From contig NZ_CP111036.1 of NCBI RefSeq assembly GCF_026248685.1, forward strand, positions 1,860,001-1,924,000: a stretch of 64,000 bases of DNA. The letters run 5' to 3'. The notes beneath the pieces are model-generated. The model did not search any database and had not been told where the DNA came from. It was given only the letters and a program-made list of their open reading frames with translations. Both the position numbers and the translations under genes were made by a program. The DNA comes from Haladaptatus caseinilyticus. Lineage in GTDB: Archaea > Halobacteriota > Halobacteria > Halobacteriales > Haladaptataceae. Each line of letters begins with the position of its first letter. The first letter of the stretch is position 1. Positions 1,134 through 9,466 of the stretch are shown piece after piece.

Positions 1134-3815
1134 TTATCGTCGTGTTCGGACCACGAGCGTGTGTGAATCGTTCGGCTCCGCGTCCACGAGTATCTCCTTC
1201 CCACGATTGGTGATTCGAGTTTTACACGCCTCGACAGCCTCACCGTCGAGCGTCACCGACGCGATATCGGCGTCCCGTGGAACGACGTGACCGATAGTGA
1301 GGGTGTCGATTTCCACATCGGGCACGGTTCGCGTTCGATAGAGTCCGGAACCGCCGGGTGCCATCGCCGACATCGCGACGGCACCGTCGGACCCGAGGCG
1401 GATGCTCTTCCCGGCGACGCGTGGCAAATGCGGCGGGATCTGCGGCACGACCGTCAGGCGACGGCGGCCCATATCCGGTCGAACTCCGAGGTAGTGGCGC
1501 ACGACCGGCCAAAGCGTTCCGTACGTCCCCCACGCTTGGAGCACCATCGCTCGCGCGGTAAACCCCTTGTCGATGGAACGTCCGTAGGTCGGTGAGGGGG
1601 CGATTTCCGGCATCGCACCCGGCTGTTCGTCGGGGTCGGGAAGTTGGAGGTTCGCATTCGCATGCACATACCGTCGTTGCTGGTCGGGTCCCAACCGCCC
1701 GTAGTTCCCCTCGCCGACCGCCATAACCGCGCTGTTCAGCGTGAATATACTCCGCTCGGTGGCGTCCTTCGTGTGGTCGTACTCCGCCGCGTCACACCCT
1801 GGCGCGCCAGTGTGATAGAGTCCTTCGTTTCGACGTCGTTCCGAGTCGTCACCGACGCCACTGTAACAGTTCGACTCTCGAAGGGAGAGCGCGGCGTTGC
1901 CGTGCGCTCCGCTCGCGATTCCGGGAACGACGTCGCCCATCGTATCGACGTACTCCGCCGACATCGGGGTGACGCCGATCCAGTGTCGCTGGTAAATTCG
2001 GCGGTTCGTTTCGTCCTCGTCGGGCGGATTTTCGAGGGAACCGGCGTGTTGTGGGATCTCCGGAATCCACCACGTTTCCGTAAACGCACACTGCATCGCC
2101 CCCGCACGGTCGATCGCCCACTCGACTGTTTCTTCGTCACCCTTGCTCCGTGCCATATCGGCGAGTGCGTACAGGCCGCGAATGGTGTAAACGGCCACGT
2201 CCAACTTCCGATCACCCATACCGGGTCGTTCGACGTTTCCTTCGCCGGTCGGCCAGAGACCGCCGTCACCCGTGAGTTCCTCCACGACGTACTGCATCCC
2301 GTCGATCATGAATTCGTAGAGTTCGTCGCGGAAGTCGTCGTCACCGGTCCATCGCCAGATCGCATGCACGGCCATCGGGAGCTTGACCGTCTCGTCGGTA
2401 TTGCCCGAATCCGAGTTCGCGCCGTAGTACACCGACCCATCAGTAACGACTTCGTGGACAGCCTTTCCGGTCTCCCCGTTGACCAATCGGCTCACCTGCC
2501 GTATCGCCCGCATGTGATCTTTCGGCACGTCGAACTGTCCGGCAGCCAACGCCGCAAACGTCGTATATTCTCCGTCTACGGCGAACAGCCACTGATAATC
2601 CGGAAACCCGGCACCGTAAAACCGTAGTGTATCGATGTTTCCCAGTGGTTCCGGATACTCGGTCCCCTCGTTCGTATATCTGACGTCGAGGTCGTGTGCT
2701 TCCTGTACGCTGTCGGCGAGGTTTTGCTTGCTCCATTCGATCGACTGCTCCAACAGTGGGTCGCCGGGGAGCGAGATCCGCGTTCGATTCGCGATCGATC
2801 GGCGGTGCTCCACCTTGCGACGGAGCGTCGTGACCGGGTCGTAGAGAACGGATTCGAGCGTATCGACGGCGTCGTCCGGCCCGGATTCCGACCCAGCGAC
2901 GGCGACCCAGACCGTTCTCGACGAATTCGCGGGGACGTCGATTTCGTACCGAAGACGGCCGCCACGACCGTTTCCGGCTTTCGAATCGTCACAGCGTGCG
3001 ACCCTCGACTCGTCCGCCGTCCTTTCGCCGCTTTCGGCCTCGTCGGGGGGGCAGATGGTAGCCGGGGACTGTGGCCCCCAATAGCCGTCGCCGATTTCGT
3101 GGCTGACCGGTTCGAGCGTCGTGCCGACCGCTGTATTCCAGTCGTGGTGTGCCGCATTTTCGACTGGTGGCGTCCCTTCCTCCCGAAATCGAAGATATCT
3201 ATCCCCGAACTCGACCGAATCCTCGCGGTTGAACTCGCTTTGGGACGGCGACGTCCCGCTCCACGGATATGCGCTCATGAGTTCCGAACGAGCGTCTATC
3301 GTCAAGGTGAACGATTCGTCGTCGTCACCCGCGGTGAAACGGAGCCCGAAGAGCGCGGCGCGTTCGTCATCGGGGACGAAATCGGTTCGCTGGACGGATA
3401 CGTCCTCGTGGTTCGGGAGATCCATCGAAACGTATCCGAACCCGCTCGTGAACCGATCGGCCGGTTCGAGCCATTCGCCGTCGATGCCGAACCAGATGCC
3501 GTCGAGAAGCTTGATCGGGGGACTCCAGATGCCGCCCATCTCGCCGGAGATATGCCATCCCATCGCGGGGAACCGACCGGACTCATCGCCCACGATGTAC
3601 GCTCGGTTGCCGGTCGTCACGTATCTCCGGTCGGCCAATCGGTCCGTTACCGAAAGTGTCGGTGTTTGCGGAAGTTCGTCCGACGATCCCGTGGTCTTGG
3701 AGTCGTCCGCTGTCGCCGGTGCAACGACTGGTAACACGCTCGCCGCAACCGTCCCTTCGATGAATCGCCGACGGGTCGGATGATCACGGCTACTGCCATT
3801 GGTATTTCCTGACAC
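1134..3815 (-). CDS. Tat-exported six-hairpin glycosidase-like protein
   Basis: 893 aa starting at GTG. The N-terminus has a Tat signal (PTRRRFIEGTVAASVLP, about residues 13-30) ending near APATADD. A beta-rich region follows to about residue 330. Then comes an alpha-helical region with repeated W/Y-rich hairpins (QWLFAVDGEY, WRWTGDDDF, GGLWPTGEG, WIPEIPQHAG), typical of (alpha/alpha)6-barrel six-hairpin glycosidases such as glucoamylase-like or debranching-type enzymes. The C-terminus (about 790-893) looks like a closing beta-sandwich. It probably hydrolyses glycosides outside the cell. I cannot name the substrate or the GH family, and catalytic acids are not identifiable by eye. AT-rich promoter sequence lies at about 3850-3880. 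It appears to be monocistronic. Confidence 0.75.
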   Translation of the reverse strand: MSGNTNGSSRDHPTRRRFIEGTVAASVLPVVAPATADDSKTTGSSDELPQTPTLSVTDRLADRRYVTTGNRAYIVGDESGRFPAMGWHISGEMGGIWSPPIKLLDGIWFGIDGEWLEPADRFTSGFGYVSMDLPNHEDVSVQRTDFVPDDERAALFGLRFTAGDDDESFTLTIDARSELMSAYPWSGTSPSQSEFNREDSVEFGDRYLRFREEGTPPVENAAHHDWNTAVGTTLEPVSHEIGDGYWGPQSPATICPPDEAESGERTADESRVARCDDSKAGNGRGGRLRYEIDVPANSSRTVWVAVAGSESGPDDAVDTLESVLYDPVTTLRRKVEHRRSIANRTRISLPGDPLLEQSIEWSKQNLADSVQEAHDLDVRYTNEGTEYPEPLGNIDTLRFYGAGFPDYQWLFAVDGEYTTFAALAAGQFDVPKDHMRAIRQVSRLVNGETGKAVHEVVTDGSVYYGANSDSGNTDETVKLPMAVHAIWRWTGDDDFRDELYEFMIDGMQYVVEELTGDGGLWPTGEGNVERPGMGDRKLDVAVYTIRGLYALADMARSKGDEETVEWAIDRAGAMQCAFTETWWIPEIPQHAGSLENPPDEDETNRRIYQRHWIGVTPMSAEYVDTMGDVVPGIASGAHGNAALSLRESNCYSGVGDDSERRRNEGLYHTGAPGCDAAEYDHTKDATERSIFTLNSAVMAVGEGNYGRLGPDQQRRYVHANANLQLPDPDEQPGAMPEIAPSPTYGRSIDKGFTARAMVLQAWGTYGTLWPVVRHYLGVRPDMGRRRLTVVPQIPPHLPRVAGKSIRLGSDGAVAMSAMAPGGSGLYRTRTVPDVEIDTLTIGHVVPRDADIASVTLDGEAVEACKTRITNRGKEILVDAEPNDSHTLVVRTRR

Positions 3816-3942
3816 ACGTTCGAGAAGGGAAGCGGCATTCTTATCTCTTTCATAGAAATATAAAAATAATAAAATAGATACAAAATAGAACGTGGTGGCT
3901 CAGTGAATGGTGGATCGGTACCGGAGTGAAAGCGGATATCGG

Positions 3943-5475
3943 CTAACTCCGCCGTTCGGCCGAGGACGTTCCCGCTAGTTCTTCGGACGAGTCGCCCCGC
4001 TCTCGTTTTCGGAGATACTCGTGCACGCGGGGGCCGAACAGCCACTCCGACCAAGACAGTTCGAATCGGCGTCGGTCTTGTTCCGGAAAGCGCCGGTTTT
4101 CGGTCATACTGAAGTTTACGAGCGCGACGAACACGATACCCCCGATAGTGTTTCCGAGCACGACCGGAACGAAGAAGTCCCCGAAGACGGTTCCGAGGCT
4201 CGCGCTTCCGGCGAAAACCAAAAAGAGCACCTCACACGCACCGACGACGCAGTGAAAGAGGTCGGCGATGGGGATGATAATCATGATGGCGTACACGATA
4301 AGGAGTCGGGAGATCGTCTCCCGCGCAGCGTGAACCAACCATACCATCGTTGCGACGAGGCCGCCAGCGAAGATACCCTTGTAGAAGAGCGCGGACCACG
4401 AGGTGTGCATGGCGTGCTCGCCCAATCGGTGGGCTGTTTCAGCCACCGTGGGATCGAAAATACCGGTTCTCGCGAGGAAGAACGCACTGATTCCAGCGCC
4501 GATGACGTTCGCGGCGAGAACGATGGTCCAGAGGCGGAGCAGTTGCGGGAGACTGGCGAGACGCGTCAGAACGAGGGTTACCGGTGTCAGCGTGTTTTCC
4601 GTAAACAGCTGATAGCTCCCGATGACGATCATCACGAAACCGATGGGATACAGGAGGTTCCCCAGCCCCACGTTACCGGGGTACGCAGTCGTCATCGCTG
4701 CGCGTGCAAGAAACGTCGCACCGACGCTCAACCCCGCGGCGAGTCCACTGAAAAACAACAGTCGCGTGCTTCGTTCGATTTCGTCGTCCGCGGTCGCCGT
4801 TACTCGTTGAAAGATCTCGTCCGCCGAAAACCGATCACGAACGGCTTCGCCAGCGGCGGGTGCCCCGCGGCGGGAACGGTCTATCGTCTCACGGAGTTCG
4901 TGATTTTCGAACCGTAGCGATCGTTTCACGTCGGCAAGGTCCCCCGTATTCGCGATGGCGGCGAGCAACGGTTCGAACTCGTATGGGCCGTCGTACCGTT
5001 CACCGTTGATGTAGAACGTCGGCGTTCCGTTTACACCACTGTTGATGCCGTTCCGAAAGTCCGCCTCGACTCGTTCTTCGTGGACTCCTCGGTCGAGTTC
5101 GTCCGTGAATCGATCCACGTCCAGTTCGAGCTCCTCCGCGTAGCGGACGAAATCCTCTCGTGTGAGTGCATCCTGGCGTTGATAGAGGATGTCGTACATA
5201 TCCCAGAATCGACCTTGTTCGGCGGCGGCCTCCGCCGCTTCGGCGGCTTGCTGCGCTCGTGGATGCTGTTGTGTGAGCGGAAAATGACGAAAGACGAACC
5301 GAATCTGTGTTCCGACTCGGTTCAAAATTCGGCGGACGACGGGATAGAAATCGCCGCAGTAGGGGCATTCGAAATCCCCGTATTCGACGAGCGTGATCGG
5401 CGCATCGTCGGACCCACGAATATGATCTCGTTCATCCACCGGTACGGTCAGCGTGTTGTTTTCGGTTTGGCTCAT
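3943..5475 (-). CDS. DsbA-like thioredoxin fused to formate/nitrite-type (FNT) channel
   Basis: 510 aa. I start at ATG 5475 (MSQTENNTL), which has a GGTGGG Shine-Dalgarno-like stretch 6 bases upstream; an ATG six codons further up (5493) is weaker. Residues 1-190 are a DsbA/thioredoxin_4 domain with CPYC at 37-40 and the cis-Pro segment GVNGTPTFYING. Residues about 235-475 have six hydrophobic segments matching the formate/nitrite transporter fold, with the central-pore His at about 408 in the sequence LFHCVVGACE. The domain lacks an export signal, so the redox domain is probably cytoplasmic and attached to an FNT pore. Substrate unknown (formate, nitrite, hydrosulfide or another small anion). 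Fold assignments are firm; function is inference. Confidence 0.85.
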   Translation of the reverse strand: MSQTENNTLTVPVDERDHIRGSDDAPITLVEYGDFECPYCGDFYPVVRRILNRVGTQIRFVFRHFPLTQQHPRAQQAAEAAEAAAEQGRFWDMYDILYQRQDALTREDFVRYAEELELDVDRFTDELDRGVHEERVEADFRNGINSGVNGTPTFYINGERYDGPYEFEPLLAAIANTGDLADVKRSLRFENHELRETIDRSRRGAPAAGEAVRDRFSADEIFQRVTATADDEIERSTRLLFFSGLAAGLSVGATFLARAAMTTAYPGNVGLGNLLYPIGFVMIVIGSYQLFTENTLTPVTLVLTRLASLPQLLRLWTIVLAANVIGAGISAFFLARTGIFDPTVAETAHRLGEHAMHTSWSALFYKGIFAGGLVATMVWLVHAARETISRLLIVYAIMIIIPIADLFHCVVGACEVLFLVFAGSASLGTVFGDFFVPVVLGNTIGGIVFVALVNFSMTENRRFPEQDRRRFELSWSEWLFGPRVHEYLRKRERGDSSEELAGTSSAERRS

Positions 5476-5724: not shown

Positions 5725-8700
5725 TCAGTTTCCGGCTTTCACCGTCACTTGTACTTGCTCGCTCGTCCCGTTGGACTCGACTCGTAGGACGACCGTCCCC
5801 GACCGCATCCCCGTCAGCTCGCCCGTCGTCGGGTCGAACCGCGCGACGTATTCGTCGGCGGTTGCTTTCTGATCGTCTTCCCGCCCGTCGTTTTCGTCGT
5901 TCTCGTCGGCGTCCGCGACGAGCAGGTTCGAACTCCCATCCCAACGGACGGTTGCGGGATACCGAAGTGGGAACGTCAGGCCCGCCGCTTGCTCACCGGT
6001 TGCGATGACGGTTGCGGTCTCCCCGACGGCCAACGAATCGGGCGCGCCGAGGTCGATTCCCTCGAGCAGTGGTCGAACCTCGGCCCGAAGCCAATCCGTT
6101 CGTTCGACGGGGTCGTCGCTCCGTTCGATCCCTCCATCGATGCCGAACAGTCGCCATTCGCGGAATCCGCCGTTCGCCGCTGGTCCATAGGGGTCCTTTC
6201 CGCTGGTCCCGAGGACCGTGTAGGGAACGCCTTCGACGCGGCTGAAATCGACCGTCCCGGCGTGCCCAGCGACGTACGTCGCACCCTTCCCGTCGGACCG
6301 TCTTCGGAAGGCGGTCAGCCACTCCTCGATCAGTTCGGCCTCCATCCGGTCGCCGAGTTGGCTGTTGTCGGTCGGAAGCGGGTCACGGGTCGGATGATGG
6401 GCCATCACGACCACGTTGTTCACCGAATCGTCCGTAGCGGCTTCCTGCAGTCCCTGTCGGAGGTCGAACAGCTGTCGGAATTCCGCAGTTCGGAACGACC
6501 CGGTCGAGGAGTCGAGGAGGAAGAAACGAGTCCCGTCGTGGTCGAAAACATATCGTCGGTTTCCGAAGGCGGCATCGAAGTTCGATAGGTCGCTCGGTCC
6601 GACTCGCTCGTGGTTGCCGGGGATGTAGTAGACCGGAAGCGCGTCCCCGACTTCCTCGCGGAGAATGCGCTGTGCGAGGTCGTAGTCCCGAGCGTAACCC
6701 CTATCCACGAAATCCCCGACGATGACGAGAAATTCGGGGTCGGCCGCGACGATTTCACGAAGGGTTCGACGGGCCAATTCGACGGTCAGGCCGTCGGGAT
6801 TGTCGCCGACGAACTGACTGTCGGCCATCGCCGCGAACGTCCATCGGTCGTCGGAAAGCGTGTCGTTCCGGACGACCATCGGGTCCGGTTCGGTCTCCGA
6901 ATCGGGAACGGACACTGGCGGCGTCACCTTCACCGTAAGGTCATCGAACACGAGGCTGCCAGTGTACTGTTGGTCGGACGATGCTTCGACCGGATAGAGG
7001 TGCGAGAACTGCAGCGGATACTCCACACCCGCGGGAACGAGCGCTTCGACGTACTGCCACCCGGTCCAATCGACGCTGTACGTGAAGTTGAGGCGATGTG
7101 CGACGCCCGCGGCATCGTAAACGACGCCCCGGAGCCACGCGCCTCGTCCGTCACCGTGTACCCACACCCCGATACGCTGTGGTTCACCGGGGAGGTCGAT
7201 GTTCGATTCGGTTCTCGCATAGACCGCTCGTGTCGCAGTCGTCGTGCTGAAATCGTACTCCAATTCGAGGCCAGTCCCGTTTCGACCCTCGACGAACGAC
7301 ATCGACCCCTCGACCGCGCTCGGGTAGCGCGAAAAGTACCACGCCGAGGGGTCCTCGAAGCCGGACACCTGTTCGGTAGCCAGTCCGACTGATACCGGAA
7401 GATACGCCTCCTCGTTCAGCACGGAGACGGTGACGAGTGTCGAACCGTTCCTCCCCTTCGGCGTGACGCTGAAGACGCCTTCGTCGGTCGGTTCGATGGT
7501 TACGAGCGATTCGTCGTAGCTCAGGGAGATATCCCGTGGTTCGACCGGCGCGGTGTAACCCTGTGCATCGAACCCGAGCACCGCGAACGTCGAGGAATCG
7601 TCTGCCGCGAGACCGATCCGCTTCGTATCGGCCTCGATACGATCGAGATCGCCGAGAACGCGCAACTCGGTTGCACTTTTTGCCTGCCCTCTGTGCGCGA
7701 CTGCCTCACCGGAACCCGACTTCCGCGCGGTAACGATACCATCGTCGTCGAACCGTCCGAGCTTTCCGGGCACGGCCCGCCACTGTTTCGGCGTCGCTTC
7801 GACCGGTGTATACGTCTCGTCGTGTGCCATCGCTTCGAACTGGCGCGAGAGATTGGGGAAGACTCGGTGCGTGTTCTCGCCGTCGAGAACCGGTGTCACG
7901 TTGAATCCGTCCAGAGTGCCACTTCCCCCTTCGACCGCTAAGCCGAAGCCGTTGGACACCGGTCGCTCGCTGCCATCGGAGGGGTCATTTCGAACGCGAA
8001 CGCCCGCCTCGCCCGGTTCGCGAGCAACGAGGGTAGACGAGCCACCGCCGTCCAGATTGAGGGCGGCGCTCGCGCCGAGGTCTCGCATCGCTTCGCCGAG
8101 TTCACGGAGGCTCGCACCACGACTGTCGCGTTGGCGTCCGTCGACGACGAACAGGAACAGCGTCTTTCCGTCCGCGGAAACACCCGCTGCGGTTCGCGGT
8201 TCCAGTCGGTCATCATCGAGACTCTCGGGGATCTTTCCATCGATCACGAGCCGGGTGCCGCCACCGATGGCCACGTCCAACGGGCTGTTGGCGTCCGTTT
8301 TCGGCCCGTAGGTAACGGAAACCGAGTCGCCTTTCCAGAGTGCCGAGAGTGCGTCGGCACCCGCCCCCCGACCGGCGAGGACGTACGAATCGTCCGGAAT
8401 CGTGCCGTCGCCCGCCGGAGACGGCGACGACACGACCGTTTCGTTCCGAACGAGTACTTCCACGGTTCCGGGCCGCTCGACGTCGTTCCAGAGTGGCGTA
8501 TACAGTCCGATACCGCCGTCCGAGATCGTTGGTTGGTTCAGCGCCACGAGTGGATGGTTCCCGTTCGGTAGTTCCACATGCCCTTCAAGCACGACCTGTG
8601 CGATGCGACCAAGGCCATCCCGTTCGACGGCGACGGTACTCGTTCGGCCTGTCGCTGGCGACGACCGAATCTCGCCGTTACCGATTTCGGCTCCGATAGG

Positions 8701-9138
8701 TGAGTCGGTGTTCCCTATGTCGAAGAAATCGCCGTTGACGCCCGCCACTGCGCCCCTGTTTTCGGCGAGGGTCGAGACCGTCTCTCGACTCGTGACGCCG
8801 GGAGAGAGGAGTTGTCCGTCGTTCGATGCCTCGTCGAGCGCGACAGTGAGCAGGTCGCAATCGAGCCACCCGCGTTCGGTGAGACGGACGAACGACTGGT
8901 ACTCGATACCGGGTGCGACGGGTGTCGTTCCCGATTCGACGATTATCGCGTTTTCTGCCTCGCCAGCGAGCGTGGCGTCCTCGATTTCACCGAGGTCGCT
9001 CGTGAATCGACTTGCGTCTCCTGCCACCGCCGTCCCGACGCTTCCCGTCGCGGCCGCGCTCAGCGAGATCGCACCCGCAATGCCGTGGAGATAGTTTCGC
9101 CTCGACTCCGATACGTTTCGCTCCGGTGTTTCTGACAT
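5725..9138 (-). CDS. Exported phosphodiester glycosidase (NAGPA/DUF2233) plus calcineurin-like metallophosphoesterase
   Basis: 1137 aa from ATG 9138; a TTG two codons earlier is less likely because TTAATATTAAG at about 9160-9170 fits a TATA box for a leaderless start. The Tat signal is SRRNYLHG. The NAGPA/DUF2233 domain carries GVNGDFFD near residue 138 and NLDGGGSST near 362. Bacterial-Ig-like and carbohydrate-binding-like beta regions span about 400-740. The metallophosphoesterase domain (about 770-1020) has MADSQF, GDFVDRG, GNHE, MAHHPT and AGHAG metal ligands. A C-terminal Ig-like domain has an acidic Asp/Glu-rich insert. The architecture resembles B. subtilis YvnB. It probably cleaves phosphodiester-linked sugars of surface polymers and then releases phosphate; that sequence of steps is inference. 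Confidence 0.82.
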   Translation of the reverse strand: MSETPERNVSESRRNYLHGIAGAISLSAAATGSVGTAVAGDASRFTSDLGEIEDATLAGEAENAIIVESGTTPVAPGIEYQSFVRLTERGWLDCDLLTVALDEASNDGQLLSPGVTSRETVSTLAENRGAVAGVNGDFFDIGNTDSPIGAEIGNGEIRSSPATGRTSTVAVERDGLGRIAQVVLEGHVELPNGNHPLVALNQPTISDGGIGLYTPLWNDVERPGTVEVLVRNETVVSSPSPAGDGTIPDDSYVLAGRGAGADALSALWKGDSVSVTYGPKTDANSPLDVAIGGGTRLVIDGKIPESLDDDRLEPRTAAGVSADGKTLFLFVVDGRQRDSRGASLRELGEAMRDLGASAALNLDGGGSSTLVAREPGEAGVRVRNDPSDGSERPVSNGFGLAVEGGSGTLDGFNVTPVLDGENTHRVFPNLSRQFEAMAHDETYTPVEATPKQWRAVPGKLGRFDDDGIVTARKSGSGEAVAHRGQAKSATELRVLGDLDRIEADTKRIGLAADDSSTFAVLGFDAQGYTAPVEPRDISLSYDESLVTIEPTDEGVFSVTPKGRNGSTLVTVSVLNEEAYLPVSVGLATEQVSGFEDPSAWYFSRYPSAVEGSMSFVEGRNGTGLELEYDFSTTTATRAVYARTESNIDLPGEPQRIGVWVHGDGRGAWLRGVVYDAAGVAHRLNFTYSVDWTGWQYVEALVPAGVEYPLQFSHLYPVEASSDQQYTGSLVFDDLTVKVTPPVSVPDSETEPDPMVVRNDTLSDDRWTFAAMADSQFVGDNPDGLTVELARRTLREIVAADPEFLVIVGDFVDRGYARDYDLAQRILREEVGDALPVYYIPGNHERVGPSDLSNFDAAFGNRRYVFDHDGTRFFLLDSSTGSFRTAEFRQLFDLRQGLQEAATDDSVNNVVVMAHHPTRDPLPTDNSQLGDRMEAELIEEWLTAFRRRSDGKGATYVAGHAGTVDFSRVEGVPYTVLGTSGKDPYGPAANGGFREWRLFGIDGGIERSDDPVERTDWLRAEVRPLLEGIDLGAPDSLAVGETATVIATGEQAAGLTFPLRYPATVRWDGSSNLLVADADENDENDGREDDQKATADEYVARFDPTTGELTGMRSGTVVLRVESNGTSEQVQVTVKAGN

Positions 9139-9144
9139 CCGCAA

Positions 9145-9466
9145 ATATAACAGTGCTTATCTATCTTAATATTAACTCCCAATTACTAATTTTCACTACA
9201 TAGGTCATCCGTTTCCTTTCCACTCTATCGTTCGGATATCGTATGGACTCGGCCAGTAGCGTCCGGGTCTGTGGTTCGACGCTTGTTGGATGATGGTTTC
9301 ACATCGAAAAATCGACACGGGCGATTTGTGTCCCTCCGGTTGTGGTTATTTAGCAATCGTATCGTTCGAATTCGGTAATCAAAGTTGTGAATGAGGAATC
9401 CCCACACTTACCATCTGTTCGAAAAAATAATACGTCTCTCAGTTCGGGATTCAACTGTCTCCGCTC
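9145..9466. other. Intergenic region with promoter of the exported phosphoesterase
   Basis: AT-rich at 9140-9210, including the TTAATATTAAG promoter-like element for the minus-strand gene starting at 9138. A 60-codon minus frame at 9225-9407 has no supporting features. Nothing else seen. Confidence 0.5.

Follow-up and report, generated by a model that had tools for sequence, protein, structure and literature searches.

The fusion gene and its two domains

What might a DsbA-type thioredoxin domain do for a channel of the formate/nitrite transporter (FNT) family? The question is raised by a gene of Haladaptatus caseinilyticus in which the two are joined, lying in a stretch of 64,000 nucleotides that we refer to as the window. 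A first-pass annotation had suggested redox gating by way of cysteines near the pore, or sulfide/thiol-linked transport. We found no description of FNT-DsbA, NhaA-DsbA or a peroxiredoxin-DsbA pair in the literature searched.

The gene occupies positions 3943..5475 of the window on the minus strand, as do the features of its protein given below, and is an intact open reading frame of 510 amino acids plus stop (ATG start at 5475, stop at 3943-3945) with the MSQTE- start common to the fusion orthologues. Residues 15-174 (4954..5433) form a DsbA-type domain without a signal peptide, recognized both by Pfam, as Thioredoxin_4 at residues 15-174 (E 4.9e-27) and as DSBA at residues 28-173 (E 9e-18), and in the structural model. 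The CXXC, the cis-Pro and the helical insertion of the DsbA-type thioredoxin fold are all present in the fused domain, alignment placing the CPYC active-site motif at residues 37-40 (5356..5367) and T151-P152 in the cis-Pro loop (GTP(152)T; 5020..5025). AlphaFold2 modelled this domain with pLDDT mostly 80-97, and the best PDB match of the model was BdbD 3EU3 (TM 0.82 normalised to the target). A linker of residues 175-219 (4819..4953), with a conserved cytoplasmic pre-TM1 segment (RSRRGAPAAGEAVRDRFSADEIFQR) common to FNT and FNT-UspA paralogues, leads to the FNT domain at residues 220-455 (4111..4818). There Form_Nir_trans (PF01226) matches at full length (profile 1-239 of 240, E 2e-50, 171.9 bits vs a curated cut-off of 34.6). 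The FNT part of the AlphaFold2 model of the full protein was poor, its alignment holding only four FNT sequences, and pore distances were not taken from it; a search of viral contigs for FNT relatives to deepen the alignment found none. The only cysteines of the whole protein are C37, C40, C409 and C414. Overall, the Pfam matches, the CPYC at 37-40, cis-Pro152 and H408 bear out the initial reading of a DsbA-type domain followed by an FNT domain.

The channel part has the pore residues of YfdC-type FNTs

To assign pore positions, a profile of these FNTs was aligned with FocA, HSC and LCIA structures, using the FocA numbering of PMC5525234. The hallmarks of the family, including the Asn of TM3 and of TM6, are in place: the invariant histidine of FNTs corresponds to H408, confirming the central His picked out in the first-pass annotation, and the Omega-loop L-x-T (L290-F291-T292, FocA L89-F90-T91; 4600..4608 by structure alignment) and the GN of TM6 likewise align with these structures. 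The S-loop and the start of TM5b (4234..4254 by alignment) hold H408 (FocA H209), C409 (210), V411 (A212) and C414 (215); further equivalents are Y276 (F75), F280 (L79), L290/T292 (L89/T91) and I401 (F202).

YfdC-type FNTs are marked by a constriction of Y-I-H-V rather than F-F-H-A, a Gly at N172 and aromatic residues at L79 and N254 (PMC5525234). In the fusion the constriction is formed by Y276, I401, H408 and V411, with Gly at N172 and aromatic residues at L79 and N254 (columns FAGG, YPIGF and FFVPVVLGN). The charged, mostly basic residue of YfdC at G86 corresponds to S287 here, while other fusions carry G, N or R at this position; since a basic residue is only a 'mostly' feature of YfdC, S287 does not exclude membership. 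Features of FocA, NirC and HSC (Phe202, Asn172, Asn254) are replaced, and the NCBIfam equivalog models for FocA and NirC score far below cut-off. Judged by these residues, the channel part of the fusion is a YfdC-type FNT. LFHCVVGACE, at first taken for an altered pore motif, does differ from FocA and turns out to be the ordinary pattern of the YfdC subfamily.

Known YfdC-type FNTs (E. coli YfdC; YfdC-alpha/beta, Mukherjee et al. 2017, PMC5525234) share this signature and a long N-terminal segment with the fusion but have no DsbA domain ahead of the channel, and the text of that survey mentions neither a thioredoxin nor a DsbA domain. Their substrate is unassigned in the survey, and E. coli YfdC is still uncharacterised (PMC10971958). 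Haladaptatus caseinilyticus itself also encodes an FNT with two UspA domains (L002, G000:C5:578228-578938), an architecture that appears widespread in the haloarchaeal order. Such FNT-UspA-UspA proteins belong to the same FNT subfamily, share the pre-TM1 segment and likewise have an added cytoplasmic stress-type domain, but they carry two C-terminal UspA domains instead of an N-terminal DsbA and form a separate clade.

Location and relatives of the DsbA domain

No export signal precedes the fused DsbA domain, the protein starting at the domain; several other DsbA-like proteins of the window genome begin with Tat/lipoprotein-like (lipobox-like) leaders. The fused domain thus lacks the export signal of a classical periplasmic DsbA, the oxidase that works with DsbB, and is unlikely to share its extracytoplasmic location. 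The termini of FNTs are cytoplasmic, as established in FocA-type structures, and the domains added to relatives of the fusion (C-terminal UspA; C-terminal DsbA in Salinibacter) are predicted on the same side. From the missing leader and the cytoplasmic FNT termini we infer a cytoplasmic DsbA domain and, likewise, the topology of the channel.

The domain is most closely related to small soluble proteins from many bacterial phyla and to the C-terminal domain of NhaA in Actinomycetota. Closest, at 48-60% identity, are soluble DsbA proteins paired with an AhpC-TSA peroxiredoxin, which unlike the fusion have no membrane domain. Consistent with this, the DsbA domains of the fusions cluster together in the domain tree (support 100/94), nearest to soluble, mostly peroxiredoxin-paired proteins (support 83/70). 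In haloarchaea the family is uncommon: at the threshold used, 8 of 117 genomes had a member. Cytoplasmic DsbA-type reductases in oxidative stress are known in FrnE of Deinococcus and NCgl2478 of C. glutamicum (PMC8945050, PMC8280269), which share the DsbA fold with the fused domain but belong to other subfamilies.

The NhaA-DsbA proteins of Actinomycetota carry the same DsbA type on an ion transporter. They differ from the fusion in that the transporter is a Na+/H+ antiporter, the DsbA is C-terminal and falls in a separate DsbA clade, and a peroxiredoxin neighbour is lacking (one distant, weak case among 44 genes). This DsbA type has been fused separately to NhaA and to FNT. One NhaA-DsbA, from Geodermatophilus (L049:4408-7299), has an extra cyclic-nucleotide-binding domain.

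Soluble relatives are encoded next to a peroxiredoxin

Of 34 loci with the soluble DsbA gene, drawn from many phyla, 22 have an AhpC-TSA peroxiredoxin gene directly beside it, and in 20 of these 22 the peroxiredoxin stop lies within about 30 bp of the DsbA start on the same strand. The tight pair of a peroxiredoxin and a small cytoplasmic DsbA recurs in many bacterial phyla (L007-L083, e.g. L030:5444-6516 and L083:5489-6534). Two further ORF clusters that recurred near soluble DsbA genes were set aside as spurious, since they overlap the DsbA gene on the opposite strand. Close haloarchaeal peroxiredoxins numbered six in 18 genomes, and all six lie beside a DsbA-family member. That neighbour is the DsbA-FNT itself in two species of Halocatena, H. 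marina and H. salina, the H. marina fusion being the genome's only DsbA-family member at the threshold used; in Halosolutus the gene order is redoxin - DsbA - DsbA-FNT. An adjacent peroxiredoxin gene accompanies the fusions of H. marina, H. salina and Halosolutus but is absent at the window locus, and no close member of the paired peroxiredoxin was found in the window genome and several other fusion genomes. Thus, either the partnership is not universal or another peroxiredoxin substitutes. The motif YPADxSPxC (x mostly W) is conserved in the peroxiredoxin; the second cysteine is replaced by Ser in some of these proteins, a variability which suggests that the enzyme needs an external thiol partner.

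Spread and history of the fusion

Among 293 genomes of the order, we identified 17 intact copies of the DsbA-FNT in 16 genomes of four families. Both domains are in one frame in all 17 and both are under purifying selection (dN/dS 0.07-0.14 in DsbA, 0.05-0.12 in FNT); the fusion is therefore not a gene-calling artefact. Identity to the window protein is 85-86% for the orthologues of H. litoreus and H. pallidirubidus. CXXC is kept in 16 of the 17 intact fusions, the exception (L126) having lost the first, nucleophilic Cys and having an FNT part without any cysteine. The same survey returned one broken copy (G186, L127) and one fragment (L102). The broken copy, from the genus Haladaptatus (G186:C1 about 749700-751180), has a frameshift and an in-frame stop, either of a pseudogene or possibly of a sequencing error. 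Plasmid records of Halocatena salina, Natrinema versiforme, N. zhouii, Halosolutus gelatinilyticus and Halostagnicola larsenii also hold the fusion, labelled merely 'formate/nitrite transporter family protein'; some of these coincide with genomes of the 293-genome survey. The survey covers one haloarchaeal order, and bacterial fusions may be undercounted.

A fusion in reversed order is encoded on plasmid pSR116 of Salinibacter ruber (L191:7995-9569), with FNT (32-268) followed by DsbA (317-482) and a degenerate CPTS. Its FNT groups with the haloarchaeal fusions L123-L126 (support 100/99), and its DsbA domain sits on a long branch, so that it may be either a rearranged or a separate fusion. The gene adjoins one for bacteriorhodopsin. 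When this long branch was added, the DsbA tree held two changes of fusion state. The tree of the FNT part holds three to five, with the stand-alone FNTs L103/L105 strongly supported as nested among the fusions, and is best read as one fusion with later losses.

Neighbouring genes and possible cargo

The neighbours of the window locus are unrelated glycosidase/phosphoesterase genes, and apart from close kin there is largely no conserved neighbourhood around the fusion. On one side, a large protein (5728-9156, minus strand) has phosphodiester glycosidase (NAGPA) and calcineurin-like phosphoesterase domains. On the other, a 921-codon open frame (1137-3899, minus strand) has a Tat-like leader and matches nothing in Pfam at E 1e-4; in L115 the fusion adjoins a relative of this frame.

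An H. salina plasmid (L193:1019-8198) carries, by Pfam, formamidase, an AmiS/UreI channel, a second formamidase, the DsbA-FNT and the peroxiredoxin, possibly as a unit for formamide use and formate disposal. Formamidase yields formate and ammonia, and its release of formate fits formate disposal by the FNT in H. salina. Formate is thus our best guess for the cargo, as a lead from context. Formamidase was discarded as a general neighbour of the fusion, being found at one of 27 loci examined and absent from most fusion genomes. As for the earlier suggestion of sulfide/thiol-linked transport, we found no specific support for sulfide, the sole substrate hint being formate at this one locus.

Possible roles of the DsbA domain

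C409 and C414 are the protein's only cysteines outside CPYC and both are present in 13 of the 17 fusions, as might be expected if CPYC exchanged thiols with them and the pore itself were redox gated. However, homologues that lack the pore cysteines, which the first-pass annotation had named as evidence against its proposal, do occur: C414 is absent from four fusions (L123-L126), two of which (L123 and L126) also lack C409. Furthermore, both cysteines are common in FNTs that have no DsbA. The sampled stand-alone and UspA-fused FNTs commonly have Cys at one of the positions or at both, about ten of the stand-alone FNTs compared have it at that of C414, and FocA of known structure 3KLY also has His-Cys (FEHCIANM) at the C409 position (210). 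By homology, C409 and C414, in the S-loop/TM5b, would sit level with the central constriction and past it, away from the cytoplasm and hence from the DsbA domain, which makes direct thiol exchange unlikely. We therefore regard such gating as very improbable, and a relay from CPYC to the pore cysteines is not supported as a general mechanism. What stands of the earlier proposal is the redox link as such, since the soluble DsbA relatives are co-encoded with a peroxiredoxin.

Two other explanations dispense with gating altogether. The DsbA enzyme might act on or need the cargo of the channel, for example by releasing sulfide or a thiol for export, in which case the fusion would serve metabolite channelling. 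K370 (4366..4368 by alignment) occupies the FocA L167 position, where nitrite and hydrosulfide channels have a basic residue (PMC5525234), and a rhodanese-MBL gene adjoins the fusion in three Haladaptatus loci, as DsrE genes lie near that of Salinibacter. We consider this improbable: paralogous FNTs that have no DsbA keep K370 as well, the neighbouring genes just named are not retained from one locus to the next, and across bacteria the DsbA family pairs with a peroxiredoxin, not with a sulfur enzyme. Alternatively, the channel could be mainly a membrane anchor or co-expression partner of a peroxiredoxin-reducing DsbA, with no functional crosstalk. Recruitment of the domain by unrelated transporters (NhaA, FNT) at either end is in line with such tethering, and the H. 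marina fusion seems to replace the soluble partner. But the FNT part is full-length, has lost none of its pore residues and shows a low dN/dS, suggesting that channel function is kept, and the close peroxiredoxin is absent from most fusion genomes; tethering alone is, in our judgement, rather unlikely.

The reading we favour, with a probability of about 0.4, is a YfdC-type weak-acid channel carrying a cytoplasmic, peroxiredoxin-linked DsbA module whose redox state alters the channel by domain contact. The channel, pentameric by family homology, would pass small monovalent anions or their acids. The fused DsbA would derive from a soluble cytoplasmic family acting as redox partner of the adjacently encoded 1-Cys-like peroxiredoxin, and its redox state would be set by peroxide through the peroxiredoxin, or by the cellular thiol pool. 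The domain may then alter the channel at its cytoplasmic entrance via domain contact, not via a disulfide with the pore cysteines, so that weak-acid flux would be matched to oxidative stress. A narrower version, in which the cytoplasmic DsbA, oxidised by the peroxiredoxin, switches a formate (weak-acid) channel open or closed, and FNT and NhaA recruited the same module as a gate, seems doubtful to us. The peroxiredoxin partnership of the fused domain, the formate cargo and the gating are read from context only. The loss of the nucleophilic Cys in L126, the CPTS of Salinibacter and the stand-alone FNTs nested among the fusions, which manage without a DsbA domain, argue against the favoured reading, as do the missing close peroxiredoxin of the window genome, the unrelated genes around the window locus and the confinement of formamidase to one locus.

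The fusion is a new domain architecture of known families, and if peroxide-responsive gating holds true, it would be a redox-gated FNT without a described counterpart. YfdC-type channels are a large FNT group without an assigned substrate, for which the fusion and the formamidase/amide-channel locus offer concrete leads on the substrate as well as on its regulation. Since a cytoplasmic DsbA is paired with a peroxiredoxin in many phyla and has been recruited separately by two families of transporters, ion transport may be linked quite generally to the peroxide/thiol state, a link of which we found no description in the literature searched.
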